From positions 4,755,001 through 4,819,000 of the forward strand of contig NZ_CP089979.1 of the NCBI RefSeq assembly GCF_021389935.1: 64,000 nt of DNA, in the 5' to 3' direction. The position numbers and the translations under genes were made by a program. Positions 36,910 to 58,849 of this stretch are shown piece by piece; position 1 is the first letter of the stretch; the number at the start of each line of letters is the position of its first letter. A model generated the notes under the pieces. That model was not told the DNA's origin and did not search any database. It worked only from the letters and a program-made list of their open reading frames with translations. The stretch comes from Fulvivirga ligni. Lineage in GTDB: Bacteria > Bacteroidota > Bacteroidia > Cytophagales > Cyclobacteriaceae.

Positions 36910-38271
36910 ATGTACGAACAGGAACCGGTGAAAATATTTGTTGTAGAGGATGATCCTGCTTATACCAAATTTTTACAGTATGTACTTGGACTCAATCCTG
37001 ATTTTGAAGTTACCAGCTTTTCTACAGGAAAAGAATGCCTCGATAACCTATATCAAAAACCAGCCATTGTTACTCTGGATTACTCCTTACCAGATATTCC
37101 AGGAGAAAAAGTTTTACAAGATATTAAGTCTTATGACAATAGCATTCAGGTAGTAATCATTAGTGCTCAGGAGAAAATTGGCACTGCCGTAGAACTCCTT
37201 AAACTTGGCGCTTATGATTATATCACCAAAGATGAAGACACTAAAAACCGACTGCTAAACACTATTAACAATGCTCGTCAAAACCAATCATTAATTAAAG
37301 AGATAGATCACCTAAAGCAGGAAATCTCTGAGAAATATGAATTTGACAAGAGTATTATAGGAAACAGCAGTGCACTTAAAAAAGTATTCAGTCTGCTTGA
37401 GAAGGCCGTTAAAACCAACATTACTGTATCTGTAACAGGGGAAACTGGAACTGGTAAAGAATTGGTAGCCAAGGCTATACATTATAATTCTAAAAGAAAG
37501 AAAAAGCAGTTTGTGGCTGTAAACATAGCCGCCATTCCATCTGAACTGATGGAAAGTGAACTGTTTGGCCATGAAAAAGGTGCCTTTACAGGTGCTAATA
37601 CGCGTAGAATTGGAAAATTTGAAGAAGCTGAAGGTGGCACCATTTTCCTGGATGAAATAGGTGAAATGGACCTTAATCTTCAAGCCAAATTACTCCGTGT
37701 AATACAAGAGCGTGAAGTAACCAGAATTGGTGGTAACGAAGTAATTAAACTAGACATCAGGCTCATTGTAGCCACGCACAGAGATCTGGCAGAAGAAGTG
37801 AAGAAAGGAAACTTCAGAGAAGATTTGTACTACAGATTACTTGGGCTCCCTATTCAGCTGCCACCATTGAGAGATAGAGGTAAGGATGTAATCATTCTGG
37901 CCAAATACTTCTTACAGACATTTTCAAAGGACAATGGCCTGGCTTCACTAAAGCTTAGCTCAGCGGCACAGGAAAAGCTACTTAGCTATCCTTTCCCGGG
38001 TAACGTAAGAGAATTGCGTTCAATTATAGAGCTGGCAGCCGTAATGGCCAATGAAAATGAAGTGACCCCTGAAGACATCAATTTCAATAGCGTTTCTAAA
38101 GAGACTAACTTCCTTTTTGAAGAGATGAGCTTAAAAGATTACACTTTTAAAATCATCCGATACTATCTGGATAAGTATGACAATAATGTACTACAGGTAG
38201 CCGCCAAATTAGATATCGGAAAATCGACCATTTACAGATATCTAAAGGAAATGGAGGAAGAGGCGTATTAA
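36910..38271 (+). CDS. Sigma-54-dependent response regulator (NtrC family)
   Basis: A 453-residue enhancer-binding protein. The receiver (1-125) has V-E-D-D near residue 15 and phospho-acceptor Asp57 in T-L-D-Y-S-L-P-D. The AAA+ domain (about 150-385) has Walker A G-E-T-G-T-G-K-E near 177, an intact sigma-54-contacting G-A-F-T-G-A near 224, and Walker B T-I-F-L-D-E. The C-terminal Fis-type helix-turn-helix (about 425-448) reads [15 protein letters not shown]. It is followed after 3 nt by a hybrid kinase gene, its presumed partner. Its targets are not evident nearby. Confidence 0.94.
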
Positions 38272-38274
38272 TCT

Positions 38275-43205: not shown

Positions 43206-45602
43206 TCATTCATCCTTTAAGCTTATGACAGGATTTGCCATGGCTGCACGCAATGATTTGTACCCCACAGTTACGATGGCGATAAGAAGCGTGAGTATGA
43301 GTGCTCCCACAAATAGCATTGGACCTAAATCGACCTGATATTGAAAGTTTTCCAGCCATGAATCCATCACATACCATGATACAGGCACGGACATCAAAAA
43401 GGCCAATAGGATTAGTTTGAAGAAAGACCAGGAGAACATGCCAATAATATTAAACACTGAGGCTCCCAAAACCTTCCTTACTCCTATTTCCTTTACTTTC
43501 TGATTCACCATAAACGAGGCTAAGGCAAACAAGCCCATACAACTTATAATGATAGCTATGGATGAAAAGAAACTGAAGATCTTCGCCATCTTACGTTCTC
43601 CTTCATAAAACTGAGCAATATATTCATCTAAGAAACTGCTAGAATAATCGTATTCAGGATAAAGTCCCTTCCAGATTCGTTCAATCTCCGGATTAACCTG
43701 CTGGAAATTAGCAACATTCACCTTTACAGTAAGCTGCCTGTAACTATTCATAGAGCTGTGAAGAACCACGGGAGTAACACCATCATGCAATGAAGTGGAG
43801 TTGAAATCGTCAATTACACCAACTACTGGCACATGGACACCGTGAACCTTCATCATCTTACCCAAAAACTCTTCAGCTCGGTCTTTATAACCTACATATT
43901 CCAAAAGCTTTTTCGTTACCAAAACTTCACTCACTGTGTCTGATGGATTCAAGTTTCTGCCTGCGATCAATTTTAGCTGATAAGTATCCAGATAATCTTC
44001 GTCTCCATATTTCATGGACGAGTAATATTCTTCCGGATCATCTCCAATGGTAAAGTCGCTTACGGAAATCGAACTTGAGCTGGGATTAGTATAGATTAGG
44101 CTAACAGCTTGAATATTAGCCAATTTTGCCACCTCTGCCTTCAGCGTTTTCTTTTTTGAAATGTCTCTTTCCGGTATTCTGATATTAACGAGTGCCTCTG
44201 TACTAAAACCTAAGTCCGTGCTACTCAAAAGCTCCATCTGACTCACGACCACTATGGTACCCACAATAAAAACTTGAGAAACAAAGAATTGAAAAACTAC
44301 CAGACCTTTACGTAACGAGAATGCTCCACTGTGCTTGCTTGTTATCATATTTTTAAGTGCAAGGGCTGGTCTGAAATTAGACAGAACCAGCGCTGGGTAA
44401 AATCCAGCCAGCACCGTAATAAGTACAGAAGCAGTCAACATTTCAGCTATAAAAATGGGCTCACCCCATGGAACGTCAAGCTGTACTTGCATGAAGGGAT
44501 TTACATACAATACCATTAACTCTGTAAGGCCTAGTGCTACAATCACTGCAACTATTACTAAGGCTAAGGACTCGCCCAAGAACTGTAAAACCAGCTGCGT
44601 TCGGGTTCCTCCCAAAACCTTCCTCACTCCTACTTCTCTAGATCGCTTCACCGCCACTGCTGTGGATAGATTAATAAAGTTAACGCAGGCAGTAAGGAGT
44701 AAGAAAACAGCGATAATAACCATTACCAATATCTCATTCTTACTGGTAGTAGAGTAGTTATAATTACTGTATCTATCATCAAAATGAATATCTGACATTG
44801 GCTGCAAATCATGTCTTTCCGTATTATTTTCATCATCTCCATAATATTTGATAGCGAACTGATCCAGCCTTGACCGATATTTATCAGGATTATCCTTTTC
44901 ACCCAGAAGAACATAGCACTGGTCATCACTAGAAACACTGCCCCAACCATCTGCTAAAACGTCTTTTTTAATAGTGATGAGTGAAATAAATATATCAAAA
45001 GGCATATCGCTATGAGCAGGTGGGTCTGCCATAATACCGGTGATCGTCAGTGGTATTTCTTTTTTATAGACTACAGTCTGCCCCAGTGCCTCTTCATCAG
45101 GGAATAGCTTAGAAGCAGCTGATTCAGCAAGCACTACGCTGTTAGGTTTACTCAGGGCACTCTTCACATCACCTTTTTTCCAGTCCACCGTGAACAAATC
45201 AAAATACTCGGGTTCGGTATAAGCGACCCTCTCGTCTCTCAATTCGAAACTAACCGCATTGGACTCATCCGGATGAACCTTAAACAGGTCTACGCCATAA
45301 TTACTTCTAACGAATACCACTTTCTCGAATTCTTGAAAATCTTCTCTAATGGCATCAGGCAGTGGACCTGGCACGCCTGGAGTATAGTCCATCTCACCCC
45401 CTGCCCCTTCAGACCTGTTGACTATGCGATAGATTCTATCTTTATTTTCCTGGAAATCATCATAGGTATTTGAATAATCTGCCAACATGAGTAGAACCAG
45501 GCAGCAGGTGATGCCTAAAGAGAGCCCCAGCACGTTGACGATAGTATAGAGCTTATTCCTAAACAGGTTACGAATAGCCGTTTTTAAATAGTTTCTGACC
45601 AT
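43206..45602 (-). CDS. FtsX/MacB-type ABC transporter permease (operon A, second)
   Basis: A 798-residue permease. It has one N-terminal helix (V-N-V-L-G-L-S-L-G-I-T-C-C-L-V-L), a large periplasmic MacB_PCD domain (about 45-270) and a first FtsX block (about 285-430) with R-S-R-E-V-G-V-R-K-V-L-G-G. A second helix pair and periplasmic domain follow, then a C-terminal FtsX block (about 670-790) with K-E-I-G-V-R-K-V-L-G-A-S and the ending V-I-S-L-K-D-E. There is no ATPase domain, unlike MacB itself. Such permeases pull lipoproteins, peptides or other envelope substrates using a separate ATPase, which is not in this window. It lies 18 nt downstream of its paralogue at 45621-48002. Confidence 0.92.
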   Translation of the reverse strand: MVRNYLKTAIRNLFRNKLYTIVNVLGLSLGITCCLVLLMLADYSNTYDDFQENKDRIYRIVNRSEGAGGEMDYTPGVPGPLPDAIREDFQEFEKVVFVRSNYGVDLFKVHPDESNAVSFELRDERVAYTEPEYFDLFTVDWKKGDVKSALSKPNSVVLAESAASKLFPDEEALGQTVVYKKEIPLTITGIMADPPAHSDMPFDIFISLITIKKDVLADGWGSVSSDDQCYVLLGEKDNPDKYRSRLDQFAIKYYGDDENNTERHDLQPMSDIHFDDRYSNYNYSTTSKNEILVMVIIAVFLLLTACVNFINLSTAVAVKRSREVGVRKVLGGTRTQLVLQFLGESLALVIVAVIVALGLTELMVLYVNPFMQVQLDVPWGEPIFIAEMLTASVLITVLAGFYPALVLSNFRPALALKNMITSKHSGAFSLRKGLVVFQFFVSQVFIVGTIVVVSQMELLSSTDLGFSTEALVNIRIPERDISKKKTLKAEVAKLANIQAVSLIYTNPSSSSISVSDFTIGDDPEEYYSSMKYGDEDYLDTYQLKLIAGRNLNPSDTVSEVLVTKKLLEYVGYKDRAEEFLGKMMKVHGVHVPVVGVIDDFNSTSLHDGVTPVVLHSSMNSYRQLTVKVNVANFQQVNPEIERIWKGLYPEYDYSSSFLDEYIAQFYEGERKMAKIFSFFSSIAIIISCMGLFALASFMVNQKVKEIGVRKVLGASVFNIIGMFSWSFFKLILLAFLMSVPVSWYVMDSWLENFQYQVDLGPMLFVGALILTLLIAIVTVGYKSLRAAMANPVISLKDE

Positions 45603-45620
45603 GTTAATAAATATATGTTG

Positions 45621-48002
45621 TTATTCGTTTTTGAGTATTTCAACTGGATTATAAAGAGCAGCTTTTACTGCATTAAATAGAATAGTGACCTGTGTGATCA
45701 CCAGGCAAACAACCAGAGTAATCACAAAATATTGCACACCTATACTGATTCTAACACTATAATCACTGAGCCAATTATCTAGAAAGAAATAGGAAATCGG
45801 CGCGGCAATAGCAAATGAGATCAATACCATCACTATGAAATTTCTGGAGAGCAATGTTACGATTTGAACAGCTTTTGCACCCAATACTTTTCTTATTCCT
45901 ATTTCCTTTAAGCGCGTGTTCACCATGTAAGACATAAGACCCAGCAACCCAATAACACCTGTGAAAAGAGCCACAAAGGTGAATAGCATAAAAGTATTGG
46001 CCGTCTGTCTTTCTGCTTTGTAGAAGTTTGCAATCTTATCGTCAAGGAATTTATATGAGAATATGTACTCAGGGAATTGTTCCTCCCATAAGCTTTTTAC
46101 TGAAGCCATGGTTTCATCCATCTGGGAGGAATTGACCTTTGCAGTACCTAAATTAAAATGCTGCTTTTGACTCCACATGGCCAATGGCTTCTGATCATAT
46201 TGAAGCGGCATAGCACTAAAATCTTCAACTACCCCAACCACAGGGCCTTTAGCTCCCCATACTTCTATTTCTTTCCCCAAGAAATCACGAGGATCATCGA
46301 ACCCAAAAGACTTTGCTAAGCTTTTTGAAACTAAATACTTACGAACAGAATCTTGGACAGATAGATTATGCCCTGCTATTAGTTCAATATCATACGTCTG
46401 CAAATAATCATCATCTATAGATTTTATTTGCACATCATGATTTTCAGCGTCCATAACGGCAACACCACCCCAGGTATTCTCTGATGCTGCTCCTGTATTT
46501 GAGAAGGTAATATTCTGAACACCAGTCAATTGACTCAACTTAGCTTTAAACTCACTATATCTCATCAGATCAGAGTTGGGTATACTAAATTCAACTAGGG
46601 CCTCTGAATCAATACCAATGGGAGTAGAAATGAAATGCCTGACCTGACTAGTAATTACCACCACAGCCATGATCAACGCTTGAGTTATGCATAATTGCAC
46701 AACGATTAGCGATTGCCTAAAAACAACACTTCCTGTGTGACCCACTAAGGAATTTTTCAACGCCTTTATTGGTGTAAATTTTGAGAGCACCAGTGACGGA
46801 TATACGCCTGCTGTTAAGGTAATAAGCATTAAAAATATGAACAGCGTTAAAATCAACTGCCATGAAAAAACCAACTCTGGAATCTCATAACCTATTATCT
46901 CATTGATCTTAAAAGACAGCAACTCTATCACTCCCAAAGCTATAATCATGGCAGTGAGGGTAATGAAAAATGTTTCAAAAATAAATTGAATAAAAAGAGA
47001 GCCTCTACTCCCACCTAAAACTTTACGTACTCCCACCTCTTTGCTACGCTTTACAGCTATGGCCGTATTTAGATTAACGAAATTAATACACGCGGCTATC
47101 AACAGTAAGCACCCTACAGATAATAAGGTATAGATACTTTTTTTGGAGGTACCAAGACCAGTGAAGTTATAGTAGTCTTGATTATAATGAACGTCATTCA
47201 AAGCCTGAATATCCAGAGTTATCTCTTTGGGATCATCCTTGACATGCTTAGCAATGTAGTCAGATATTTTATTTGAAAAAGCTGCTGCATCAACGTTAGG
47301 CTTTAATTTAAGAAAGCATTGTGTACTAGACGAAGTGGCAGTCCAGTTTCCCTCCCATATTCTAAAGTCTGCCCCTACATCAAAAGAAATGAACATCTCA
47401 AAAGGCAGATCAGAATTCATGGGCGGATCCTGAATTATACCTGTAACGGTAACATCAAAATAGTTCTCTATATTTAGAACCTTACCCATTGCCTGCGTGT
47501 AATCACCGAAGTACTTATTGGCCATACTTCTAGATAATACCACAGAGTTTTTACCAATCACCACTTTTGACGGTTCGCCATAAAGGAATGTGTAATCAAA
47601 GATTTCAAAATAGTCAGGATAAACGAATGCCTGCTTTACAGGATCTTCCTTATATTTTATCTTTTGTCCATCCTGCATAACGTTAATGAGACCAGAAACC
47701 TGATTGTTATCCACCATAGACATCAATTCGATCTCGGGAAAATCCTCCTTAAAAGTGAGCCTCAATGGAAAAGGAATGCCGCTGTCCTTGTCCATTTCAT
47801 CACCAATGCGCTCCTCAGTAACCAATCGATAGATGCGATCCGAATCCTTATGAAAGTTATCATAACTCAGGTGAAATGAGGTAATCATGAAAATCATGAG
47901 GGAAGCACTAATGCCTATTGCCAGCCCTACGATATTAATAAGAGCATGACTCTTATTTCTCAGCAGCGTTCTGAGAGCAGTTTTGAGAATATTATTGAGC
48001 AT
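45621..48002 (-). CDS. FtsX/MacB-type ABC transporter permease (operon A, first)
   Basis: A 793-residue paralogue with the same double-FtsX layout: the opening L-R-N-K-S-H-A-L-I-N-I-V-G-L-A-I-G, two copies of the coupling motif (R-S-K-E-V-G-V-R-K-V-L-G-G near 318 and K-E-I-G-I-R-K-V-L-G-A near 700), and the end P-V-E-I-L-K-N-E. It is the first gene of operon A, with the sigma-54-like element 42 nt before its start codon and the TGTATC-N6-GATACA inverted repeat further up. The ATPase partner is missing from the window. It is probably controlled by the response regulator at 54800. Confidence 0.92.
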   Translation of the reverse strand: MLNNILKTALRTLLRNKSHALINIVGLAIGISASLMIFMITSFHLSYDNFHKDSDRIYRLVTEERIGDEMDKDSGIPFPLRLTFKEDFPEIELMSMVDNNQVSGLINVMQDGQKIKYKEDPVKQAFVYPDYFEIFDYTFLYGEPSKVVIGKNSVVLSRSMANKYFGDYTQAMGKVLNIENYFDVTVTGIIQDPPMNSDLPFEMFISFDVGADFRIWEGNWTATSSSTQCFLKLKPNVDAAAFSNKISDYIAKHVKDDPKEITLDIQALNDVHYNQDYYNFTGLGTSKKSIYTLLSVGCLLLIAACINFVNLNTAIAVKRSKEVGVRKVLGGSRGSLFIQFIFETFFITLTAMIIALGVIELLSFKINEIIGYEIPELVFSWQLILTLFIFLMLITLTAGVYPSLVLSKFTPIKALKNSLVGHTGSVVFRQSLIVVQLCITQALIMAVVVITSQVRHFISTPIGIDSEALVEFSIPNSDLMRYSEFKAKLSQLTGVQNITFSNTGAASENTWGGVAVMDAENHDVQIKSIDDDYLQTYDIELIAGHNLSVQDSVRKYLVSKSLAKSFGFDDPRDFLGKEIEVWGAKGPVVGVVEDFSAMPLQYDQKPLAMWSQKQHFNLGTAKVNSSQMDETMASVKSLWEEQFPEYIFSYKFLDDKIANFYKAERQTANTFMLFTFVALFTGVIGLLGLMSYMVNTRLKEIGIRKVLGAKAVQIVTLLSRNFIVMVLISFAIAAPISYFFLDNWLSDYSVRISIGVQYFVITLVVCLVITQVTILFNAVKAALYNPVEILKNE

Positions 48003-48134: not shown

Positions 48135-48152
48135 TGTATCGATATTGATACA
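48135..48152. promoter_or_regulatory. Operator-like inverted repeat TGTATC-N6-GATACA (operon A)
   Basis: TGTATC at 48135-48140 and GATACA at 48147-48152, spacer GATATT. The same arms and spacing occur at 54725-54742. It lies about 97 nt upstream of the -12 element, a usual place for an activator site of a sigma-54 enhancer-binding protein. Confidence 0.6.
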
Positions 48153-48153
48153 A

Positions 48154-48182
48154 AAAAAGGCTACCAAGATGGTAGCCTTTTT
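48154..48182 (-). terminator. Terminator of the lipoprotein pair
   Basis: A 12-bp inverted repeat AAAAAGGCTACC (48154-48165) / GGTAGCCTTTTT (48171-48182). The minus strand ends in a T-run. It lies 20 nt after the stop of 48202-48849 and directly next to the operator of operon A. Confidence 0.88.
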
Positions 48183-48201
48183 AATAAAGAGTCTGATATT
48201 A

Positions 48202-48849
48202 TCAGTCATCAATATCAATAGAAATATTTTTATCGTCTGCCCTGTCAACTTGATAGTAATAATAATAGTTTCCATCCTCAGAAGACGTATAGAAATAAAT
48301 ATCAAAATAGATTTCAGATGGCATAGTCACAGAAGCTCTACCATCTTCGTCTGTTGTTGCCTTAACCCCAGCTTCTAACTTTTCAGAAAAATTATCTAAA
48401 TTATTATTTTCCTCTGTTCGCTGAAGGAACAACAATTTGACATTGCCTTCAATATCTGAGCCGCTATAAGTAGTTACATTTAAAGTACCCATATAATCTT
48501 CTGTATCAAGAGTAACATTCTTATCACTACCAGAGAGAACCTGCAAAACTTGAGAGATTCTATACTTTAAACCACCTTGAGTGGTTTCTGCTTCAATAAG
48601 GTATGAACCCGAGTTTAATAAACCAAAGTCCACCATACCGTTTTCATCAGATACAGCTTCATCCAAAACTGCATCTTCACCCAGCATTGGATATAGTTTG
48701 AAACGTACATCTGACACTGCTGCACCTTGGTGGTTTAATGTGATAGCTAATGTTCCACTATCTCTGAGATTAACTTTAATGTCCTTGGAATCATCATTAC
48801 AAGCTATGATAGATATAGCTAACAGTATTATTATATATAATTTTCTCAT
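48202..48849 (-). CDS. Lipoprotein with carboxypeptidase-regulatory-like beta domain
   Basis: A 215-residue lipoprotein (Y-I-I-I-L-L-A-I-S-I-I-A-C, lipidated Cys17). Residues about 28-110 form a beta-sandwich like the carboxypeptidase-regulatory/Cna-B type (G-A-A-V-S-D-V-R-F-K-L-Y-P, then D-E-N-G-M-V-D-F-G-L-L-N-S-G-S-Y). A second similar repeat comprises about 120-210 (T-L-N-V-T, D-E-D-G-R-A-S-V). It is a clear paralogue of the adjacent 48858-49550 protein. The gene pair lies between the two permease operons, and the proteins may be surface or periplasmic partners or substrates of the permeases. Binding partner unknown. Confidence 0.75.
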   Translation of the reverse strand: MRKLYIIILLAISIIACNDDSKDIKVNLRDSGTLAITLNHQGAAVSDVRFKLYPMLGEDAVLDEAVSDENGMVDFGLLNSGSYLIEAETTQGGLKYRISQVLQVLSGSDKNVTLDTEDYMGTLNVTTYSGSDIEGNVKLLFLQRTEENNNLDNFSEKLEAGVKATTDEDGRASVTMPSEIYFDIYFYTSSEDGNYYYYYQVDRADDKNISIDIDD

Positions 48850-48857
48850 TGCTAATT

Positions 48858-49550
48858 TTAAATTGAGTCTACGTAAACAGTTTTATAAGTGATATAATCA
48901 GGATAAAGGAAATAAGAATTTAAGTATTCAGAATCACCATTATCGTTATAATAGTAAATATCATATGAATAACCCCCTGGCAGATTTTCCACCAATAGTT
49001 TACCATCAACATCGCTTACACCCTTAATTCCACGCTCTAAAAGCTCTGAGAAGTCCTTAGTGGTAGAACCATTCACTCTCTGAACTACTAAGATTTTAGC
49101 ATCTGCAATGATGTCTGCAATAAAATCATCTGAACGCACTGTTAAATTTAAAGTCCCATTATAGAGTCTACTGTTAATGTTAACATCCAAATCCCTATCC
49201 ACACCAGCGACAACCTGAACCGCCATCAGATGATCATAAGTCTTGTATTTCAAATTACCTGAAGTAAGCTCCCACATGGCATAATATGAGCCAGACTTCA
49301 ATTCGCCAAAGTCAACTAGCCCTTCCTCATTAATAGATTGGACATCAAGCAATGGCACATCGTCGAAATCGTTCTCCAGATCAGCTGGATAAAGCTTCAC
49401 TACTCCATCTGTTACTGGAGTTCCATCCTTATCAGCAAAGTGTACTCTCAAATTACCACTATCCCTAACAGTAACATCAAACTCTTCATCCTCTTTACAT
49501 GACCATGCGAAGATGACCAAGACAAGGAATAAAATCATTTTTCTCATCAT
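48858..49550 (-). CDS. Lipoprotein with carboxypeptidase-regulatory-like beta domain (paralogue)
   Basis: A 230-residue lipoprotein starting at ATG 49550 (M-M-R-K-M-I-L-F-L-V-L-V-I-F-A-W-S-C); the frame extends 13 codons upstream but without a better signal. Shared features with its neighbour are V-R-D-S-G-N-L-R-V, V-K-L-Y-P, E-E-G-L-V-D-F-G-E-L-K-S-G-S-Y, a second T-L-N-L-T-V repeat and a tyrosine-rich C-terminus (S-Y-D-I-Y-Y-Y-N). The two genes are 8 nt apart and end in one terminator, so they form a duplicated two-gene operon. No recognisable sigma-54 element precedes it. Confidence 0.75.
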   Translation of the reverse strand: MMRKMILFLVLVIFAWSCKEDEEFDVTVRDSGNLRVHFADKDGTPVTDGVVKLYPADLENDFDDVPLLDVQSINEEGLVDFGELKSGSYYAMWELTSGNLKYKTYDHLMAVQVVAGVDRDLDVNINSRLYNGTLNLTVRSDDFIADIIADAKILVVQRVNGSTTKDFSELLERGIKGVSDVDGKLLVENLPGGYSYDIYYYNDNGDSEYLNSYFLYPDYITYKTVYVDSI

Positions 49551-49694
49551 AATAGTTAAAATTTCTATAGATTTTTTATAAGTCTGCAATGATAGTAGAA
49601 AAGTTATTAAATTAAAAACACTTATTTTATATTTTGGATTTAAAAAATAAACAGGTGTTTTCCAATAATTGACTCTTAGAGCTAACCCAACAAA

Positions 49695-49720
49695 AAAGGG
49701 GCGTCAATTGACGCCCCTTT
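49695..49720 (-). terminator. Terminator of permease operon B
   Basis: A perfect 26-bp palindrome, AAAGGGGCGTCAA / TTGACGCCCCTTT, with TTTG beyond it on the minus strand, 44 nt after the stop of 49764-52199. A hairpin with no unpaired loop bases will open to about 4 nt. Confidence 0.85.
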
Positions 49721-49763
49721 AAAAACTTGTCTATAATTCAAATGAATTCAATGCAGTTCTACA

Positions 49764-52199
49764 TCACTCTTCCTTCAAACTCTTCACAGGGTCTACCACA
49801 GCTGCTTTGATAGATTGATAACTCACCGTAAGCCATGCTATGGAGAGAGCTGATAGACCGGCAATGGCAAACACCTCCCAGCCAATTTCGATTCTCATTA
49901 CAAACTGCTCCAACCATTTACTCATGAGCCACCACACTAAAGGGATAGAGATGAAAAGTGATATTAGTATAAGCTTGGAGAAATTGCTATTTAGCAGAAT
50001 TACTATCTGTGCAATGGATGCACCCAGTACTTTCCTCACCCCTATTTCTTTGTTTCTTTGGGCAGCCATAAACGATGCTAATCCAAATAATCCAAGACAA
50101 GCAATTAATAGGGCTAACACTGCAAATACACTGAACAGTAAGCCCAGTTTCTGCTCACTTTGATATTGTTCTGAGATGCTTTCATCCAGGTATACATAAT
50201 CCAATGGCACTGATTCAGAAAGCATGTTCCAGTTATTTTCCAACGAAGCAATCACCTGCGGTAGACTTTTAGGATCATATTTCAGGGCCATTAGTCTATT
50301 GTCATTAAATAGATTTGCATCATTATGGAATATGGCTAATGGTGCAATTTGAAATTTCACCGAGGCCATATTAAAATCAGACACTACACCTATCACATGA
50401 AACTCCACGGATTCAAAATACTCCACTTTTTGTCCAAGAACATTCTCAAGATTCCAGCCAAAAGCCTTCATAGCCTTCTCATTGATAACGATTCCTGACT
50501 TATCTGATGGGTTAGATTTTACGAAATTTCTACCGGCTAACAGTTTCATATCAAAGAGTGGCATATAATCTTCATCGCCCTTTACAGTAGCTAAAGACAT
50601 CTTTTTATCTGGCTCCCCCTCTTTATAGAAAAGATCTTCAAGCGCATAGGAACTATTCCCGCCCATTACACTGCCAATAGAAACCTCCTTTATTCCGGCT
50701 ACTTTTCTCATTTCCTGCTTAAAAGCGTTCATTTGATCGTGTAGCTTGTCCACCTCTTTTACTACTATTATATGGTCTTTATTCAAGCCTAAATCAGTAT
50801 CCTCACAATATTTTAATTGCTTATAGATTACAGCCGTACTAGCCACCAGAATTATAGCAATACTAAACTGACAGATAACCAATATATTACGCAACAATGA
50901 ACTCTTAGCTCCACTGGCCACGCTTCCTTTTAATACTCTGGCTGGCTGAAAAGAAGTAAGGTAAAATGCCGGGTACAGACCTGCCAATAAGCCAAGTACA
51001 AGAGGAAGCAGCATCACCATGGTTAAAATCCGTGGATCTGTAAATATGCTGGTGCTCATATTGATTCCCAGATAGTCTACCACTGAAAATCTTAATAGCT
51101 CAGCCAGACCTAAACCGATGATGGTGGCAATTGTACTTAACATCACTGATTCCAATAGAAACTGCCTTACCAGGTGGGCTTTACCTGATCCTAACACCTT
51201 TTTCACGCCAATTTCTTTGGCTCGATTTGCGGCACGAGCGGTAGTAAGGTTTACGAAATTGATTCCCGCTAAAAACATAATGAAAATGGCAACTGTACCA
51301 AAGATATATACATAAGTGACGTCACTTACCGGCTCTATATTACCACCTACTGATGAGTTTAAATGGATATCTTCTACCGGCTGCAATACGAAATCTAACT
51401 TCCCTTTTTGGCTTTCAAAATCAGCCATTGAAATACCTAGTCTATTAAAGGCATCCATAGCATATTTATGAGCCAGGCCATGCATTCCTTCCTCTACCTT
51501 TGGAACATTATTTTTGATTCTAACATAAGTATGCATCTGTGTCCAAATCCAGCTCCACTCAAATCTTTTCACGGCAGGGTTAGTAGGCATTGACAAGAGT
51601 AAGTCGAAATGAAAATGGGCATTTGTAGGTTGCTTCTCTGTAACACCTGTTACTTCCACCGGCATCTTCTCATCGCCTAGCAGAATGGTTTTACCTACTG
51701 CTGACTGCTCACCAAAATACCTTTGCGCTGCTTCTTTGGATAGCACTACAGAATTGACCTGACTCAATGCCTTATCACGACTACCCTCTAATAGCTGAAA
51801 ACCGAAGAAATCAAAGAAATTAGAATCGGCAGCCAATATATTATCTTCTCTAAATGAACTGTAAGTGCCTCCCTGCTCAACATTAACTATGGTTGCTGTG
51901 GGTGTATTGATTCGTACAGCAGCCTCTACTTCAGGAAATTCAGATAACATGGCATCAGCCACGGGAGGTGGAGTACGACTCATCCAGCCGCCTTCAGGAT
52001 CCCAGATGTTAGTTTGATTTACCCTATATATCTCATTCCCATTAGGATGGAAGTTATCATAACTCAACTCATGCAGCAGGTAAATGCTGATAAGCAAAGA
52101 CACCGCCACACCCACGGATAACCCCAGTATATTCAGACCAGCGTAAAACTTATGTCTTAAAAAGTTTCTTATGGCTATTTTGAAATAATTCTTAATCAT
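49764..52199 (-). CDS. FtsX/MacB-type ABC transporter permease (operon B, second)
   Basis: An 811-residue double-FtsX permease. It opens L-R-H-K-F-Y-A-G-L-N-I-L-G-L-S-V-G and has a periplasmic MacB_PCD domain of about 230 residues. The coupling motifs are R-A-K-E-I-G-V-K-K-V-L-G-S near 325 and R-N-K-E-I-G-V-R-K-V-L-G-A near 715, and the end is P-V-K-S-L-K-E-E. It starts 24 nt after the stop of its paralogue 52224-54617, hence one operon. Like the others it lacks an ATPase domain. Within the group it is the most diverged of the four (V-K-K in place of V-R-K). Confidence 0.92.
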   Translation of the reverse strand: MIKNYFKIAIRNFLRHKFYAGLNILGLSVGVAVSLLISIYLLHELSYDNFHPNGNEIYRVNQTNIWDPEGGWMSRTPPPVADAMLSEFPEVEAAVRINTPTATIVNVEQGGTYSSFREDNILAADSNFFDFFGFQLLEGSRDKALSQVNSVVLSKEAAQRYFGEQSAVGKTILLGDEKMPVEVTGVTEKQPTNAHFHFDLLLSMPTNPAVKRFEWSWIWTQMHTYVRIKNNVPKVEEGMHGLAHKYAMDAFNRLGISMADFESQKGKLDFVLQPVEDIHLNSSVGGNIEPVSDVTYVYIFGTVAIFIMFLAGINFVNLTTARAANRAKEIGVKKVLGSGKAHLVRQFLLESVMLSTIATIIGLGLAELLRFSVVDYLGINMSTSIFTDPRILTMVMLLPLVLGLLAGLYPAFYLTSFQPARVLKGSVASGAKSSLLRNILVICQFSIAIILVASTAVIYKQLKYCEDTDLGLNKDHIIVVKEVDKLHDQMNAFKQEMRKVAGIKEVSIGSVMGGNSSYALEDLFYKEGEPDKKMSLATVKGDEDYMPLFDMKLLAGRNFVKSNPSDKSGIVINEKAMKAFGWNLENVLGQKVEYFESVEFHVIGVVSDFNMASVKFQIAPLAIFHNDANLFNDNRLMALKYDPKSLPQVIASLENNWNMLSESVPLDYVYLDESISEQYQSEQKLGLLFSVFAVLALLIACLGLFGLASFMAAQRNKEIGVRKVLGASIAQIVILLNSNFSKLILISLFISIPLVWWLMSKWLEQFVMRIEIGWEVFAIAGLSALSIAWLTVSYQSIKAAVVDPVKSLKEE

Positions 52200-52223
52200 T
52201 GTTGATAGAGTTTAGTTGGGACC

Positions 52224-54617
52224 TTATTCGTCTTTTAGCGCTACTACAGGGTTAGCCACAGCCGCTTTTATGGACTGAAAACCTACGGTGAGAATGGCTA
52301 TTACACCATTTATTAAAATGCCGGCCACAAAATATAGCGGTGATAATTCAATTTTATAAGCAAAGGATGAAAGCCAGCTATTCATAGCCCACCAACTTAT
52401 AGGTGCAGCAATGAGAAAAGCTATTAACAACAAGATGATATACCCTTTACCGAACAGTAAGAATATGCTTGAAACAGAAGCACCCAATACTTTTCTCACC
52501 CCGACCTCTTTAGACTTCTGGTTCACTAAAAAGGACACCAAGCCAATTAATCCTAAACACCCGATGGCTATAGCTATACCTGAAAGAATTTTAAAGAGAT
52601 TATAAATAGTTTGTTCTGACTCATAGTTTTTACTGAGCATATCATCTAAAAATTCATAGTCATACACATACTCTGGGAATACTACCTCCCAGCTTTTCTC
52701 AATGTGTGCCATAGCAGCAGGTAAATTATCTCCGCTAATCCTAATCCCTCCCTCAAAGTAAAATGGAGGAAACTGACACATAATTAACGGCTCTATTCCT
52801 GCTTCTAGGGAAGCCATATGAAAGTCCTTTACTACCCCCACTACGGGAGCATTGATGCCATTTATTCCAAACTGGATTTTCTTTCCGATGGCCTCTTCAG
52901 GACTAGTGAAGCCTATTTTCCTGGTCATACTTTCATTTACTATCAGCTCATACCCTTCCTTGCCTTTTTGAATATGGGTAAACCAATTTCCGGCCACTAG
53001 ATCCAAACCGTAAGTATCTTTGTAATCTATATCCACTGCTTTTATCTGAGCATTCATATTTGAATCATCACCCTCTGCCTGAAAGTTAGAACTCAAACCG
53101 TTGTTAGAAGTGGGTGCTCCAAGAGCAAATGACACACTGCTAATCATATTATCTTTAAGCAATTCACTTTTGAATGTCTCCAGCTTTCCTTCATCTCTAA
53201 CTGGCAATGAAAGTGTTACTATCTGATCTTTCTTAAAACCCAATGGCTTGCTATGGAAATAATCCATCTGACTGGCAATGACCAGGGTAGCGATAATCAG
53301 CACTTGAGAAACCACAAACTGGAATCCCACCAGGCCTTTTCTTAAGAACAAAGAGGTGCTATTCACATCAGTGATTTTGGTTTTTAATGCTTTAGCTGGC
53401 TGATATGAGGCCAATATCATTGATGGGTACAGGCCAGATAACAATGTTACTACTAGTACTAACCCTATATAAAACACTATAAACTCAAACTGTGTAACAG
53501 CACTGATACTCAGAGAAATATCCATATAATGATTTATAAATGGCAAAGTTCTCTCTACAATACCCAAAGACAACAGGGCGCTGGTAAGAGTAATTAAAAA
53601 TGCCTCTGATAAATACTGTAGGGAAAGCTGACTTTTATTGGCACCAAGCACTTTTCTCATCCCTACTTCCTTAGCTCGCTTAATGGCCAGCGCCGTAGAA
53701 AGATTAATAAAATTGACACAGGCAATAACCAAGATAAAAATACCAATAGATCCTAGTACCCATATATAAGTACTGTCCATAGTGTAAGTAATATTATCCT
53801 CGACAAAGCGCTGATTAAAGTGAATGTCTTTCAAAGGCTGCAAAAAATATGTAGTTTCATTATTTTTCGAAATAGGCTTATACTTATCTCTTAAAGCTAT
53901 TAACCCCTCATTGATTCGGCTTTCAGATACATTTTCAGGGAGAACTACATAGTTATAAATGCCACCATTAAAGTCCCAACTAAAAATATCCAACCCTACA
54001 AACTCCGCTGACAGCGTAGGAAATGACACAAGCATTTCAAATTGGATATGAGAATTAACCGGCAAATCCTTCATAATTCCCACCACTTCTACATCTTCGG
54101 TTTGATTCAATCTGAAGACTTTGCCTAATGCATTTTCACCATTAAAATGGTCTTTTGCTAAGGATTCTGTTAAAATTACTTCACCTGCAGTGCCAAGTAA
54201 AGTTGCTTTACTAGAGGCGATTATTTCAAAATCAAATACATTAAAAAATGCAGAGTCTGCAAAAGCGATATCACTTTGAGTCCACTTATCTCCATTATAT
54301 AATATCTGATAATCAGTGGGTTGAAAAAGTTGTGTAACGTGCTTCAGCTCAGGCAAATCATTTCGAATAGCTTCCGCCATTGGTGATGGTACAGAGCCTT
54401 CATAATCCAGCCCTGAAGAATTTTTACCCTTTGTAACTACACGATAAATTCTGTCTGCCTTTGTGTTGAAATCATCAAAGCTCAACTCATTACTGATAAA
54501 TAAGAATATGACGATGCAAGTGCTGATACCTACAGTGAGCCCCACAAGGTTTATCAGGGCAGATAAACGATTTTTTAAGAGACTTCTGAAGGTGATTTTG
54601 AAATAGCTTTTAAACAT
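52224..54617 (-). CDS. FtsX/MacB-type ABC transporter permease (operon B, first)
   Basis: A 797-residue paralogue with the same layout: L-L-K-N-R-L-S-A-L-I-N-L-V-G-L-T-V-G at the start, R-A-K-E-V-G-M-R-K-V-L-G-A near 315, K-S-K-E-V-G-V-R-K-V-L-G-A near 705, and the ending P-V-V-A-L-K-D-E. It is divergent from the response regulator gene (182 nt between start codons). That region contains the operator-like palindrome and a sigma-54-like element, so the regulator probably activates this operon. ATPase partner not in window. Confidence 0.92.
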   Translation of the reverse strand: MFKSYFKITFRSLLKNRLSALINLVGLTVGISTCIVIFLFISNELSFDDFNTKADRIYRVVTKGKNSSGLDYEGSVPSPMAEAIRNDLPELKHVTQLFQPTDYQILYNGDKWTQSDIAFADSAFFNVFDFEIIASSKATLLGTAGEVILTESLAKDHFNGENALGKVFRLNQTEDVEVVGIMKDLPVNSHIQFEMLVSFPTLSAEFVGLDIFSWDFNGGIYNYVVLPENVSESRINEGLIALRDKYKPISKNNETTYFLQPLKDIHFNQRFVEDNITYTMDSTYIWVLGSIGIFILVIACVNFINLSTALAIKRAKEVGMRKVLGANKSQLSLQYLSEAFLITLTSALLSLGIVERTLPFINHYMDISLSISAVTQFEFIVFYIGLVLVVTLLSGLYPSMILASYQPAKALKTKITDVNSTSLFLRKGLVGFQFVVSQVLIIATLVIASQMDYFHSKPLGFKKDQIVTLSLPVRDEGKLETFKSELLKDNMISSVSFALGAPTSNNGLSSNFQAEGDDSNMNAQIKAVDIDYKDTYGLDLVAGNWFTHIQKGKEGYELIVNESMTRKIGFTSPEEAIGKKIQFGINGINAPVVGVVKDFHMASLEAGIEPLIMCQFPPFYFEGGIRISGDNLPAAMAHIEKSWEVVFPEYVYDYEFLDDMLSKNYESEQTIYNLFKILSGIAIAIGCLGLIGLVSFLVNQKSKEVGVRKVLGASVSSIFLLFGKGYIILLLIAFLIAAPISWWAMNSWLSSFAYKIELSPLYFVAGILINGVIAILTVGFQSIKAAVANPVVALKDE

Positions 54618-54657
54618 GCTGATGTAGTTTAATTCTGTTAATGACCACCATTATCTT

Positions 54658-54673
54658 TTCAATACAAATACCA
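54658..54673 (-). promoter_or_regulatory. Candidate sigma-54 promoter of permease operon B
   Basis: On the minus strand TGGTAT-TTGTA-TTGAA, ending 41 nt before ATG 54617. It shares TGGyAy-N5-TTGAA and spacing with the element before operon A, but is further from the sigma-54 consensus (TAT for CAC). Confidence 0.45.
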
Positions 54674-54724
54674 TAATTTTAAATCATTGATTATCAATTA
54701 GTTAATAATCAAATTTAAATTTAG

Positions 54725-54742
54725 TGTATCATAATTGATACA
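54725..54742. promoter_or_regulatory. Operator-like inverted repeat TGTATC-N6-GATACA (operon B/response regulator)
   Basis: TGTATC (54725-54730) and GATACA (54737-54742), part of a perfect 20-bp palindrome GTGTATCATAATTGATACAC at 54724-54743. A further half site TGATACAC lies at 54759-54766, closer to the regulator start at 54800. This suggests activation of operon B and autoregulation from one site cluster. Confidence 0.65.
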
Positions 54743-54799
54743 CTTCATTGTTTGTTTATGATACACTTTACTAAGTTTATAAAACAAAAGCCATTAGCC

Positions 54800-56167
54800 A
54801 TGAAAGCACAAGGTAACATTTTGATAGTAGATGACGATATTGATGTTTTAGAAACTGCAAGAATGTTTTTAAAGCAGGAATTCTCATCTGTAGACATTGA
54901 ACAAAATCCTGAAAAGATTTCAGGACATTTTGAGCGCAAGGACTATGATGTGGTGCTTCTAGATATGAATTTCAAAAAAGGCATGAATGACGGTGCTGAG
55001 GGATTCTTCTGGCTCAATGAAATCCTAAAAATGGACAATGATGCCAGTGTGATCCTGATCACGGCCTACGGCGAGGTAGATCTGGCAGTAAAAGCCATGA
55101 AAGAAGGAGCTACTGATTTTGTGCTTAAGCCATGGAAAAACCAGAAACTACTGGCCACCATCATGTCAGCCTTGAAACTGCGGGAATCGAGAAAAGAAGT
55201 GGTACGCCTTAAAGAGTCACAGCAATCCAGCACACGATCATCGGGCGAATTTGAGAATTTAACAGGTGAGTCTGCTGCTCTTCAACGAGTGAAAGACCTG
55301 ATTAAAAAAGTAGCAGCCACTGATGCCGACGTTCTTATCCTTGGTGAAAACGGCACCGGTAAAGAAGTGGTAGCCAGAAACATACATCAACACTCGAATA
55401 GAAAAGATGAAGTGTTTGTGCATGTAGACTTAGGTGCTATAAGTGAGACTTTATTTGAAAGTGAGCTGTTCGGCCATGTAAAAGGAGCTTTTACTGATGC
55501 TCGTCAGGATAAGCCTGGCAGGTTTGAGGTAGCGCAAAAAGGCACCATCTTTTTAGATGAAATTGGCAACCTGTCTCTTCCTCTTCAAGCCAAACTACTC
55601 ACCGTACTACAAAGCAGAAAAGTAAAGAGAGTTGGTTCTAATAAAGACATAAATCTAGATGTGAGACTCATCTGCGCTACCAATATGCCTCTTAATGAAA
55701 TGGTGGCAGAACAGACCTTTAGACAGGATTTGCTCTATCGTATCAATACAGTTGAAATAAGAGTGCCGTCATTAAGAGAAAGAAGGGAGGATATCTCTTT
55801 GCTCGCAGATCATTTTCTTAAAATCTTCAGCCATAAATACCACAAAAAGGGCATTAAAATAGCCACCAGTACTCTGGAAAAACTTAAAAGTTATCCCTGG
55901 CCGGGGAATATTAGAGAGCTACAACATGCGGTAGAGAGAGCGGTCATCCTTAGCGAAACTGATAGCATAGATAGTATTGAATCATTTATATCGGTACCGC
56001 ATCATCCCAGCAGCCTGCTGGCAGAGGATAAAACACTGGATGAAATGGAGAGGGATTTCATTCTTCAAACACTGGAGCGCAATAATGGCCATGTCACTAA
56101 AACAGCAAAAGTGCTGGGCTTAACGCGCACAGCACTTTATAGAAGAATGAATAAACATGGCATTTAA
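54800..56167 (+). CDS. Sigma-54-type response regulator (NtrC family, GAFTDA variant)
   Basis: A 455-residue enhancer-binding protein. ATG 54800 (M-K-A-Q-G-N-I-L-I-V-D-D-D) is the start; the open frame before it begins with TTG and includes operator DNA. The receiver has phospho-acceptor Asp55 in L-L-D-M-N-F. The AAA+ domain has G-E-N-G-T-G-K-E near 183 and Walker B T-I-F-L-D-E. The sigma-54 contact loop is G-A-F-T-D-A near 229 instead of G-A-F-T-G-A. The C-terminal Fis-type helix-turn-helix is T-K-T-A-K-V-L-G-L-T-R-T-A-L-Y-R-R. The likely partner is the kinase at 57500, one gene away on the same strand. It overlaps the convergent lactonase gene by 4 nt. Confidence 0.93.
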   Translation: MKAQGNILIVDDDIDVLETARMFLKQEFSSVDIEQNPEKISGHFERKDYDVVLLDMNFKKGMNDGAEGFFWLNEILKMDNDASVILITAYGEVDLAVKAMKEGATDFVLKPWKNQKLLATIMSALKLRESRKEVVRLKESQQSSTRSSGEFENLTGESAALQRVKDLIKKVAATDADVLILGENGTGKEVVARNIHQHSNRKDEVFVHVDLGAISETLFESELFGHVKGAFTDARQDKPGRFEVAQKGTIFLDEIGNLSLPLQAKLLTVLQSRKVKRVGSNKDINLDVRLICATNMPLNEMVAEQTFRQDLLYRINTVEIRVPSLRERREDISLLADHFLKIFSHKYHKKGIKIATSTLEKLKSYPWPGNIRELQHAVERAVILSETDSIDSIESFISVPHHPSSLLAEDKTLDEMERDFILQTLERNNGHVTKTAKVLGLTRTALYRRMNKHGI

Positions 56168-57360
56168 GGCATAAACTGAAGACATACCGGTGTTGGAATT
56201 TCTGTTTCCACACCTATATCTATCAGCTCACCTGTTTCTTTATCTATCTCAAAAGTTACCACGTTGCTAGAATTTTGATTCGCTACTAGCAAGAATTTAC
56301 CAGTTGGGTCTATCACAAAATTTCTTGGTGCATCACCTTTAGTAGGTTGGTGACCCACCAGGCTTAATTCACCAGTTTCCTCGTTTATCTTAAATATGGC
56401 GATATTATTAAACTTACCTCTGTTGCTGGCATAAAGAAATCTACCATCAGGAGTAATGTGAATATCGGCAGAACCTGCATCTACACCTGTAGTGTCCTCC
56501 ACGGCAGGTAAGGTCTGGAATGATCTTAATTCACCATTATCTGCAATATCAAATGAGGTCACTGTTCCTTTAAGCTCATTGATAGAATAAGCTATCTTTT
56601 TAGTAGGATGAAATGCCAAATGCCTTGGTCCTGATCCGGCTGGCAGTTTCGTTACAAATGAGCTAGCTTCAAGGCTATCTTTGCCTTCATCCAGTCTGTA
56701 GGGTATAATCTGGTCGATGCCCAGATCAACCGCATAAACAAATCCATTTTTTATAGGCCACACACTGTGTGCATGAGCTGATTCCTGACGGGCAGTTGTA
56801 CCTGAACCTTCATGCTGTACATGCATTTTACTTTCCAGGCTACCATCACCAGCAATAGTATATAAAGCCACCACACCATCTACATAGTTAGCAACTAAAA
56901 CATATTTACCTGATGGGTCTGTGGTAATAAAACAAGGTGCTTTACCTTCCGAAGACACGTGATTTAATTCCCTTAAAGTACTGTCTGCCTCCACTTTATA
57001 CGCATATACTGAGCCTGTAGGAACACTATCATTACCTACAGTTTCACTCACTGCATACACATAATCTCCACTACTGTGGATAGTTAAGTATGAAGGATTC
57101 ACTATGCCACGGGTGGTAGATATTTTTTCTAATTTACCTGTGTGCATATCTAATTCATAGAGATAAATGCCCTCTGCTTTGCCGTCTACATGTCCCTCTT
57201 TTCGGGTATATGTACCTACATAAAGCAATTTTTTATCGGGTTTACTTCTCATGGTTGACAGGCTATCTTCCTCTATTTCGTTTTCATCTTTACTTGCTGG
57301 CTTCTGACAGCTCACAATTAAAAACAAAAGAATTAATGAGTATATGGTTGGTTTTAACAT
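56164..57360 (-). CDS. Lactonase-family beta-propeller lipoprotein
   Basis: A 398-residue protein with a lipoprotein signal (S-L-I-L-L-F-L-I-V-S-C, Cys18), then a seven-bladed propeller of the 6-phosphogluconolactonase (PF10282) type. Repeated blades carry H-x-S-G-D-Y-V-Y-A-V, D-P-S-G-K-Y-V-L-V-A-N-Y, H-P-T-K-K-I-A-Y-S-I-N-E, T-P-D-G-R-F-L-Y-A-S-N-R and D-P-T-G-K-F-L-L-V-A-N-Q. Being lipid-anchored it acts in the envelope, so a role in the cytosolic pentose phosphate pathway is unlikely. It lies between the response regulator and the kinase genes but on the opposite strand; a role as ligand sensor for the kinase is only a guess. Confidence 0.88.
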   Translation of the reverse strand: MLKPTIYSLILLFLIVSCQKPASKDENEIEEDSLSTMRSKPDKKLLYVGTYTRKEGHVDGKAEGIYLYELDMHTGKLEKISTTRGIVNPSYLTIHSSGDYVYAVSETVGNDSVPTGSVYAYKVEADSTLRELNHVSSEGKAPCFITTDPSGKYVLVANYVDGVVALYTIAGDGSLESKMHVQHEGSGTTARQESAHAHSVWPIKNGFVYAVDLGIDQIIPYRLDEGKDSLEASSFVTKLPAGSGPRHLAFHPTKKIAYSINELKGTVTSFDIADNGELRSFQTLPAVEDTTGVDAGSADIHITPDGRFLYASNRGKFNNIAIFKINEETGELSLVGHQPTKGDAPRNFVIDPTGKFLLVANQNSSNVVTFEIDKETGELIDIGVETEIPTPVCLQFMP

Positions 57361-57499: not shown

Positions 57500-58849
57500 A
57501 TGCAATTTTATAAAACCTTCAGTTTCAAAGTCATTATTCGGCTGATTTTATTATTAGTGGTAATGGTTGCCTTTGCAAAGATCTTTGGCGATAAGCGATT
57601 ATTCTTCAATCACATCATTCTCGCTTGCGTGCTAATAATTCAAATATTTGAACTACTTCGCTTTCTCAACCAAACCAATAAAGAGCTGGCAAAGTTTATT
57701 TTATCTATAAAACATCAAGATTTCAGTGCATCTTTTAATCGATCTCCGGCCACACACTCTTTTCAGCAGCTTAACCATGCTTTTAATGAGATCATTTTAA
57801 GCTTTAAAGACACCAAAATGGAGAAAGAAGGCCAGTATCATTATCTCCAAACCGTGGTGAGTCATATCAATGTTGGCATTCTCTCCTTAGAAAATGACAC
57901 CAGCATTACCCTGATGAATAAAACCGCAGAAGATCTACTGCAAGCTACAGGCATTAAAAACTGGAAGATACTGAAAGAAAAGCACCCAGAATTTGTGAGA
58001 GAAATAGATCAAATGCACATATCAGGAAGAAAGCTGATCAGTTTGGAGGGTGAGAATAACAGAACCTTATCTGTAGAAGTGAACACCATGCAGCTCCTCG
58101 ATAAAACCTACAAGCTCATCACTTTTCAGGATATTAAAAATGAAATAGAACAGACTGAGATTGAAGCATGGCACAAACTTATCAGGATTTTGACCCACGA
58201 AATCATGAATAGTGCTACACCTATTTCCTCACTTACCGAAACCATGCTAGGCATGCTCACTTCCGACGGAGAGCAGAAAAAGCTTGAAGACATTGACGAA
58301 GAAACCATTGGCGACCTTCGCTTTTCATTAAACACCATCCAAAAAAGAAGTGACGGCATGCTTTCTTTCATAGATGATTATCGGAAGCTCACTAAGGTGT
58401 CTAACCCCAGGTTGGAAGAAGTGCATATTCAGGAGCTATTTCAGGATATTCATCTGCTCATGAAAAAGCAGATGGAAGATAACCACATCGCATTACATAT
58501 TAGTTGTGAGGTAAGTACGATCAATCTTGATAGGCATTTGATGGAGCAGGTGCTGATCAACCTGATCACCAATAGCAAACATGCACTGGAAGGAATAGAA
58601 AATGCAGAGATTCATCTCACGGCTCAATATAAAATGGGAAAAGCCTGCATCGAAGTTACTGATAATGGTAGCGGCATACCTAAAGTGGAGCTTTCACAGA
58701 TATTTGTGCCATTCTATTCCACTAAAAAGCAAGGCTCAGGCATTGGCCTTAGCCTTTCTAAGCAGATTATGCATTTGCATGGAGGTTATATAAAAGTGGC
58801 CTCTGAAGAAGGTAGAGGCACTTGCATCAGCTTATACTTTAAGGGTTAG
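57500..58849 (+). CDS. Membrane sensor histidine kinase, NtrY-like
   Basis: A 449-residue kinase. Two N-terminal helices (about 11-25 and 33-50) have almost no periplasmic loop between them, so it likely senses within the membrane or cytoplasm. A PAS-like domain spans about 110-210 and HisKA has His233 in L-T-H-E-I-M-N-S-A-T-P. HATPase shows Q-V-L-I-N-L-I-T-N-S-K-H-A-L-E, D-N-G-S-G-I-P and G-S-G-I-G-L-S-L. The H-E-I-M-N sequence and lack of a receiver match the NtrY/NtrB-type partners of NtrC-like regulators. Its partner is presumably the regulator at 54800, separated by the lactonase gene. Confidence 0.93.
   Translation: MQFYKTFSFKVIIRLILLLVVMVAFAKIFGDKRLFFNHIILACVLIIQIFELLRFLNQTNKELAKFILSIKHQDFSASFNRSPATHSFQQLNHAFNEIILSFKDTKMEKEGQYHYLQTVVSHINVGILSLENDTSITLMNKTAEDLLQATGIKNWKILKEKHPEFVREIDQMHISGRKLISLEGENNRTLSVEVNTMQLLDKTYKLITFQDIKNEIEQTEIEAWHKLIRILTHEIMNSATPISSLTETMLGMLTSDGEQKKLEDIDEETIGDLRFSLNTIQKRSDGMLSFIDDYRKLTKVSNPRLEEVHIQELFQDIHLLMKKQMEDNHIALHISCEVSTINLDRHLMEQVLINLITNSKHALEGIENAEIHLTAQYKMGKACIEVTDNGSGIPKVELSQIFVPFYSTKKQGSGIGLSLSKQIMHLHGGYIKVASEEGRGTCISLYFKG

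Follow-up and report, generated by a model that had tools for sequence, protein, structure and literature searches.

A TGTATC-N6-GATACA dyad as the likely operator of an NtrC-family regulator facing two FtsX permease operons in Fulvivirga ligni

In a stretch of 64,000 nucleotides of the Fulvivirga ligni genome (contig NZ_CP089979.1, positions 4,755,001 to 4,819,000; hereafter the window, whose own numbering is used unless genome positions are stated), the inverted repeat TGTATC-N6-GATACA, with a spacer of six nucleotides, stands before each of two operons of MacB_PCD/FtsX permease genes, here called A and B, and an NtrC-family response regulator is encoded from position 54800, divergent from operon B (Table 1). 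Judging from sequence comparison, we hold it highly probable (about 0.9) that this dyad is the specific operator of the 54800 regulator, which would activate both permease operons via sigma-54. The genome (6,523,894 bp) contains two exact copies of the dyad, both before the permease operons of this one cluster. The case rests on the position of the dyad and its conservation, and not on the frequency of the motif.

The two dyads are 6.6 kb apart, and both direct reading and a motif search find them where the earlier note on this DNA had placed them, with identical 6-bp arms and 6-bp spacers; the motif search also bore out its remark that the window holds no third exact copy. The palindrome at dyad B extends beyond the arms, as that note had described, and its real extent is longer than the perfect 20 bp proposed there: by direct reading, 9-bp arms in the arrangement AGTGTATCA-TAAT-TGATACACT occupy 54723-54744. 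The extra half site TGATACAC is indeed found at 54759-54766 (direct reading). The distances to the promoters, previously given as 97 nt for operon A and 73 nt for operon B, hold if they are taken from the centre of the site to the -12 element, and correspond to 75 and 51 nt, respectively, from the edge of the site to the -24 T, which is the measure used below.

A sigma-54-like -24/-12 element resembling TGGCAY-N5-TTG is present at all 37 permease-facing sites, with TGG conserved in 37/37 and the -12 G in 36/37 of them. Scores of at least 8 bits were reached in 3.7% of 1110 Markov-resampled stretches vs 37/37 real ones, a contrast that has to be read with the fact that the matrix was built from the same sites; the element of operon B scores 8.2 bits when its own sequence is discounted. 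The gaps between site and element fall into steps, namely 51 nt (7 sites), 52 (2), 62 (6), 63 (16), 64 (3), 65 (1), 75 (1) and 85 (1). Six further sites have gaps of 51, 51, 53, 63, 65 and 76 nt, of which the element at 63 scores 8.9 bits and that at 76 scores 10.7 bits; locus L097 is outside the gap analysis, as its site has no permease gene start nearby. These steps of 10-12 bp suggest helical phasing, in which insertions and deletions would have been kept only in about whole turns.

Conservation was followed in two sets of loci. A set of 42 came from named genome contigs searched with the regulator (Fulvivirga, Chryseolinea, Ohtaekwangia, Dawidia and others) and was steered by peptides of the window's own regulator, so that a second set of 29, comprising the loci of other genomes from a regulator homologue search of 78 genomes of the family, is the fairer sample of the wider family. 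At 33 of the 42 loci, a copy of the dyad with no more than one mismatch adjoins the regulator or an FtsX/MacB-type permease operon, and 27 of these copies are exact. It occurs at all 34 loci of this set whose regulators are at least 59% identical to that of the window, the other eight being 27-57% identical, and all 31 loci at or above 65% carry it, two of them with a 2-mismatch copy beside the regulator. Locus L107 (66% identical) has the dyad with two mismatches; L088 (85% identical) has a 1-mismatch copy before a permease operon about 4.4 kb off and a copy with two mismatches on the regulator side. The dyad is present at five of the 29 loci (four exact, one with one mismatch; regulators 61-69% identical). 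The arms are constant and the spacers vary by species, the most conserved spacer column reaching 0.58 in 33 aligned rows; since these rows were picked for having the dyad, the conservation of the arms is no test in itself, and only their contrast with spacer and flanks informs. Taken together, the dyad is conserved with the regulator across species as a candidate enhancer.

As far as the parsed regulators go, the class of the recognition helix fits the presence of the dyad better than overall identity does. From 142 loci entered, 95 regulators were parsed, of which 90 are distinct and have upstream DNA; the comparison covers these, and loci such as nine of the 29 loci L024-L052 fall outside it. 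The N6 dyad with at most one mismatch is found upstream of 29/38 regulators with a TRTA helix vs 3/52 others, and the same arms with other spacers are found before 1/38 (N5) and 0/38 (N7) of the TRTA regulators. The three cases among the others are L118, whose TRTALYRR helix was missed by the pattern, L111, with TRTSLYRR, and L125, whose sequence record contains masked or broken letters that led to a misreading of the final residues. Dyad-less homologues of the 29-locus set whose helix could be read mostly have TRAS, TRSS or other helices, not TRTA. Overall identity as the rule for the dyad was rejected, since homologues 57-62% identical with other helices are without it. We do not claim a simple code from helix to half site, since a paralogue with a GRSTLYRK helix also uses TGTATC arms, and the helix classes largely track ancestry. 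The earlier note's suggestion that such a site would suit a regulator with a Fis-type helix-turn-helix is supported by these comparisons, as the dyad tracks the closest homologues and the helix class, and sigma-54-like permease promoters lie at set distances from it.

On its promoter-distal side, dyad B is followed by a second, weaker dyad (Table 1). A second GATACA half, offset by 35 bp from the start of the strong dyad and matching in at least five of six letters at +34 to +36, is found at 28/35 regulator-proximal sites, compared with a mean of 0.65 and a maximum of 4 in 500 shuffles. It recurs at 7/11 permease-facing sites without an adjoining regulator (shuffled mean 0.18, maximum 3, 2000 shuffles), and therefore belongs to the candidate enhancer; the idea that the half site is part of the regulator's promoter only is weakened by the same seven sites. 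The earlier note's half site in front of the regulator gene is thus correctly placed, and is better described as a conserved second enhancer element than as a feature of the regulator gene only. This element is most likely the place of a second dimer.

The second half site also falls between the two elements of a possible primary-sigma promoter of the regulator gene, the primary-sigma promoter consensus of Bacteroidota being of the -33/-7 type. At 22/35 loci, the best TAnnTTTG-like match ahead of the regulator falls at +46 to +49, and the location of the half site inside the likely promoter suggests autorepression. An alternative explanation is that the dyad serves above all to autorepress the regulator gene, its position on the permease side being a by-product of the divergent layout. 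It would agree with the half site between the promoter-like elements and with regulators that keep their own copy though the permease operon is elsewhere, as in genome G036, which belongs to the same genus (7.5 kb between regulator and permease operon, exact dyad before each), and at locus L090 (genes 1.85 kb apart, dyad at both). However, dyad A and a series of sites in other genomes have no adjoining regulator and face a sigma-54-like element at the usual gaps. Exact dyads with such an element are found at permease genes located on separate contigs or at a distance of 2 Mb in G011 (L085), G088 (L214, L215) and G092 (L216, L217), and the same combination is found at a second permease gene 12 kb away in G080 (L221) and at one about 27 kb from an LGITRTALYRR regulator in G025. 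In L088 and G036, too, permease-facing sites lie apart from the regulator and are comparable to dyad A. The second half site likewise occurs at regulator-less sites, and we consider autorepression as the chief function improbable.

Slightly less probable still is that a different DNA-binding protein, and not the neighbouring regulator, reads the dyad. In favour of this, the pairing of regulator and dyad is a prediction, and strong sigma-54 activator matches number 13 in this genome. Against it, the dyad accompanies the 54800-type regulator and its helix class across genera, and the permease operons of close paralogues are preceded by different dyads. In the same genome, paralogue L003 has two copies of TGTTCC-N5-GGAACA, 23 bp apart, with no further exact copy in the genome, and the paralogous regulator at genome position 3896691 has TGTATC-N5-GATACA-like pairs 24 bp apart. 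A degenerate N5 version occurs before an unlinked permease gene (genome 78102, start at about 78217) with its own sigma-54-like element. The L006 and L003 paralogue systems resemble the 54800 system in that the regulator gene diverges from FtsX permeases and the sites are paired at 23-24 bp, whereas their dyads differ from the 54800 dyad in a 5-bp spacer (L006) or in other arms (L003). At L006 (genome 3884000-3901000), five FtsX permease genes stand in a row, divergent from the paralogous regulator, with paired N5 dyads.

Exact-pattern searches of 78 and 27 genomes, made without annotation and in two sets that may overlap, returned 74 exact copies, of which 40 adjoin regulator or permease genes; spacers and adjacency labels were entered by hand. 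The first spacer base is a purine and the last a pyrimidine in 40/40 of the gene-adjacent copies vs 11/34 of the others. The reversed control pattern occurs 13 and 10 times in the two genome sets, which puts the 34 non-adjacent copies near chance level; in the F. ligni genome it has one exact copy. The nine 1-mismatch copies of this genome, inspected by eye, include none at the MacB_PCD permease genes of the profile search and none with a purine-first, pyrimidine-last spacer. That the dyad is a chance likeness, a terminator hairpin or a repeated element is very improbable, for although there are two copies only, with no enrichment at two mismatches, and dyad A touches a terminator-like hairpin, position and arms are kept at dozens of loci whose spacers differ, the hairpin is formed by an inverted repeat of its own, and no T-run is found next to dyad B.

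Several observations weigh against the dyad being the operator of the 54800 regulator at the permease operons. The genome-wide count that the earlier note had proposed shows no excess at a relaxed match (223 matches with at most two mismatches, compared with 270 for the reversed control); a frequency test alone would have looked negative, and we dropped the count as a positive argument. Within the window, five matches with at most two mismatches were found where 2.94 were expected, a number reached by 15 of 100 shuffles. The 34 of 74 exact copies that lie away from regulator or permease genes are background-like. In the 29-locus set, 24 homologues, 57-62% identical, are without the dyad even at two mismatches, which we attribute to their other helix class. 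No dyad within one mismatch precedes the genes of nine of the 38 TRTA regulators: L088, L107 and L168 have one with two mismatches, L121 and L123 have the helix LGISRTALHRR, and L124, L126, L157 and L159 have LGITRTALYRR, a helix with which 4/5 regulators have no dyad before their own gene. For the last four, a dyad elsewhere was found only in G025, the genome of L157, at the permease gene about 27 kb away. In G002 (L061), an exact site lies 88 nt before the regulator, the nearest permease is 794 nt away, and no good sigma-54 element was found at this site. The weakest promoter elements, with their own sequence discounted, score 5.5 bits (L117) and 7.7 bits (L104), and the best-fitting period of the gaps is 11.5 bp (resultant 0.94) vs 0.87 for 10.5 bp. 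Dyad A has no second half site. Finally, related species are not independent, and p-values are therefore too small.

If the dyad is the operator of the 54800 regulator, activation could proceed as follows. The regulator would be phosphorylated, probably by the histidine kinase encoded at 57500-58849, and a dimer would bind the strong dyad, with a second dimer on the weaker element, whose centre lies some 23.5 bp more distal to the promoter. The resulting oligomer, presumably with looping of the DNA in between, would contact sigma-54 polymerase at the -24/-12 element, across a gap of 51 nt for operon B and 75 nt for operon A, and so drive transcription of both FtsX/MacB-type permease operons. 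The predicted regulon thus comprises operons A and B and perhaps the regulator gene too, which the second element, inside its likely promoter, could repress.

The regulator has the domains PF00072, PF00158 and PF02954 in that order in a single protein, which is the NtrC-family architecture. The best 25 of 86 NCBIfam matches, searched for a named equivalog (NtrC, AtoC, ZraR, NtrX and others), are all below cut-off; it is thus a general member of the NtrC family and not an equivalog of the NtrC, AtoC, ZraR or NtrX type. GAFTGA is the sigma-54-contact loop of sigma-54 activators, and the 54800 regulator has GAFTDA in this place. Among the 90 distinct regulators, GAFTDA occurs in 84, GAYTDA in two and GAFTGA in four, which makes GAFTDA, one residue off, a common variant of the sigma-54-touching loop among these regulators. 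The genome has one Sigma54_DBD match (E 1.1e-54), corresponding to rpoN. In seven of eight relatives' loci (L079-L084, L086, L087), a kinase homologue is encoded within two genes of the regulator on its downstream side, directly after it in five and with one intervening gene in two; none was seen behind the regulator at L087. In the window, a lactonase-type beta-propeller gene (56164-57360) lies on the opposite strand between regulator and kinase.

Table 1. Features of the window that bear on the dyads, their proposed regulator and the permease operons.
Feature	Position	Strand	Basis or remark
Candidate enhancer dyad A, TGTATC-GATATT-GATACA	48135..48152	.	read from sequence, motif search
Candidate enhancer dyad B, TGTATC-ATAATT-GATACA	54725..54742	.	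sequence, motif search, inverted-repeat list, relatives
Second, weaker dyad, TGTTTG-TTTAT-GATACA	54749..54765	.	half site 54759-54766 is its right half; start offset from dyad B, 24 bp
Sigma-54-like promoter of operon B, TGGTATTTGTATTGAA	54658..54673	-	dyad B at a gap of 51 nt
Sigma-54-like promoter of operon A, TGGCACCAGCTTTGAA	48044..48059	-	dyad A at a gap of 75 nt
Possible primary-sigma promoter of regulator gene	54751..54779	+	TTTG 54751-54754, TAAGTTTA 54772-54779; -7 match 5 of 6
NtrC-family response regulator	54800..56167	+	receiver, residues 7-121; sigma-54 activation, 155-320; Fis-type helix-turn-helix, 412-452
Histidine kinase, probable partner of regulator	57500..58849	+	domain search, relatives' gene order
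Operon B gene 1, MacB_PCD/FtsX permease	52224..54617	-	domain search
Operon B gene 2, MacB_PCD/FtsX permease	49764..52199	-	domain search
Operon A gene 1, MacB_PCD/FtsX permease	45621..48002	-	domain search
Operon A gene 2, MacB_PCD/FtsX permease	43206..45602	-	domain search
Hairpin and T-run, probable terminator	48159..48182	-	direct reading, inverted-repeat list

The four permeases of operons A and B are about 800 amino acids long each, and the genome has 53 MacB_PCD matches, often two per protein. The first permease of each operon (52224-54617 and 45621-48002) is matched below cut-off by two NCBIfam models, ADOP and DarB (darobactin export permease), along nearly its whole length. Between operons B and A, at 48202-49556, are two adjacent putative lipoprotein genes of similar layout, which by eye resemble diverged copies; a weak SpaA match is found in one only. 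The hairpin between these genes and dyad A probably insulates operon A from upstream transcription. The interval 36910-40200 holds the gene of another, different sigma-54 activator, with a kinase/receiver gene immediately after it.

Known systems offer points of comparison. In Desulfovibrio vulgaris, regulator-specific motifs of sigma-54 activators were derived by orthologue comparison; most regulons comprise one to four operons, and three motif groups have TGT and ACA halves 9, 11 or 12 bp apart (PMC4641369). The Fulvivirga dyad shares such halves, 12 bp apart, whereas it comes from another phylum, has FtsX permease targets, and shows gaps stepped by about one helical turn (compare PMC4641369). 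NmpR of Myxococcus xanthus is an NtrC-like response regulator with GCGCA-N5-TGCGC inverted repeats, for which binding and expression were shown; the shared traits are an NtrC-like regulator, inverted repeats, more than one site per promoter, and, as its own operon is among the NmpR targets, a possible parallel in autoregulation (PMC11841059). The spacer is N5 there and N6 here, the preferred distance between sites is 14-15 nt there and 6 nt here, and in the sections of that paper considered here no permease regulon is described for NmpR (PMC11841059). Sigma-54 promoters before FtsX-like permeases (COG0577) were predicted in 2025, with enrichment in the class Bacteroidia among others; activators are mentioned there in general, and the terms 'bEBP' and 'upstream activat' are absent from the main text (PMC12316311). 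No description of a TGTATC-N6-GATACA operator was seen among the papers listed by a literature search, in part the best 8-15 of more. Relative to the main text of PMC12316311, what is new here would be the activator, operator, conservation and geometry for one FtsX regulon in Fulvivirga-like bacteria.

The paralogue dyads with an N5 spacer and near-identical arms raise the idea that a 1-bp spacer difference separates two regulators. As a tentative conjecture, which we think somewhat more likely to fail than to hold, each FtsX module may have a private activator-enhancer pair, the 54800 and 3896691 paralogues being told apart mainly by N6 vs N5 spacing, with the enhancer-promoter distance shifting only by about whole helical turns. 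The natural series of sites, with spacers of N4, N5 and N6 and gaps stepped by about a turn, would be material on how paralogous sigma-54 activators avoid cross-talk. For the abundant and poorly understood FtsX/MacB-type permeases of Bacteroidota, the predicted regulator, operator and targets would form a concrete set, and may offer a route to the signal of each group.

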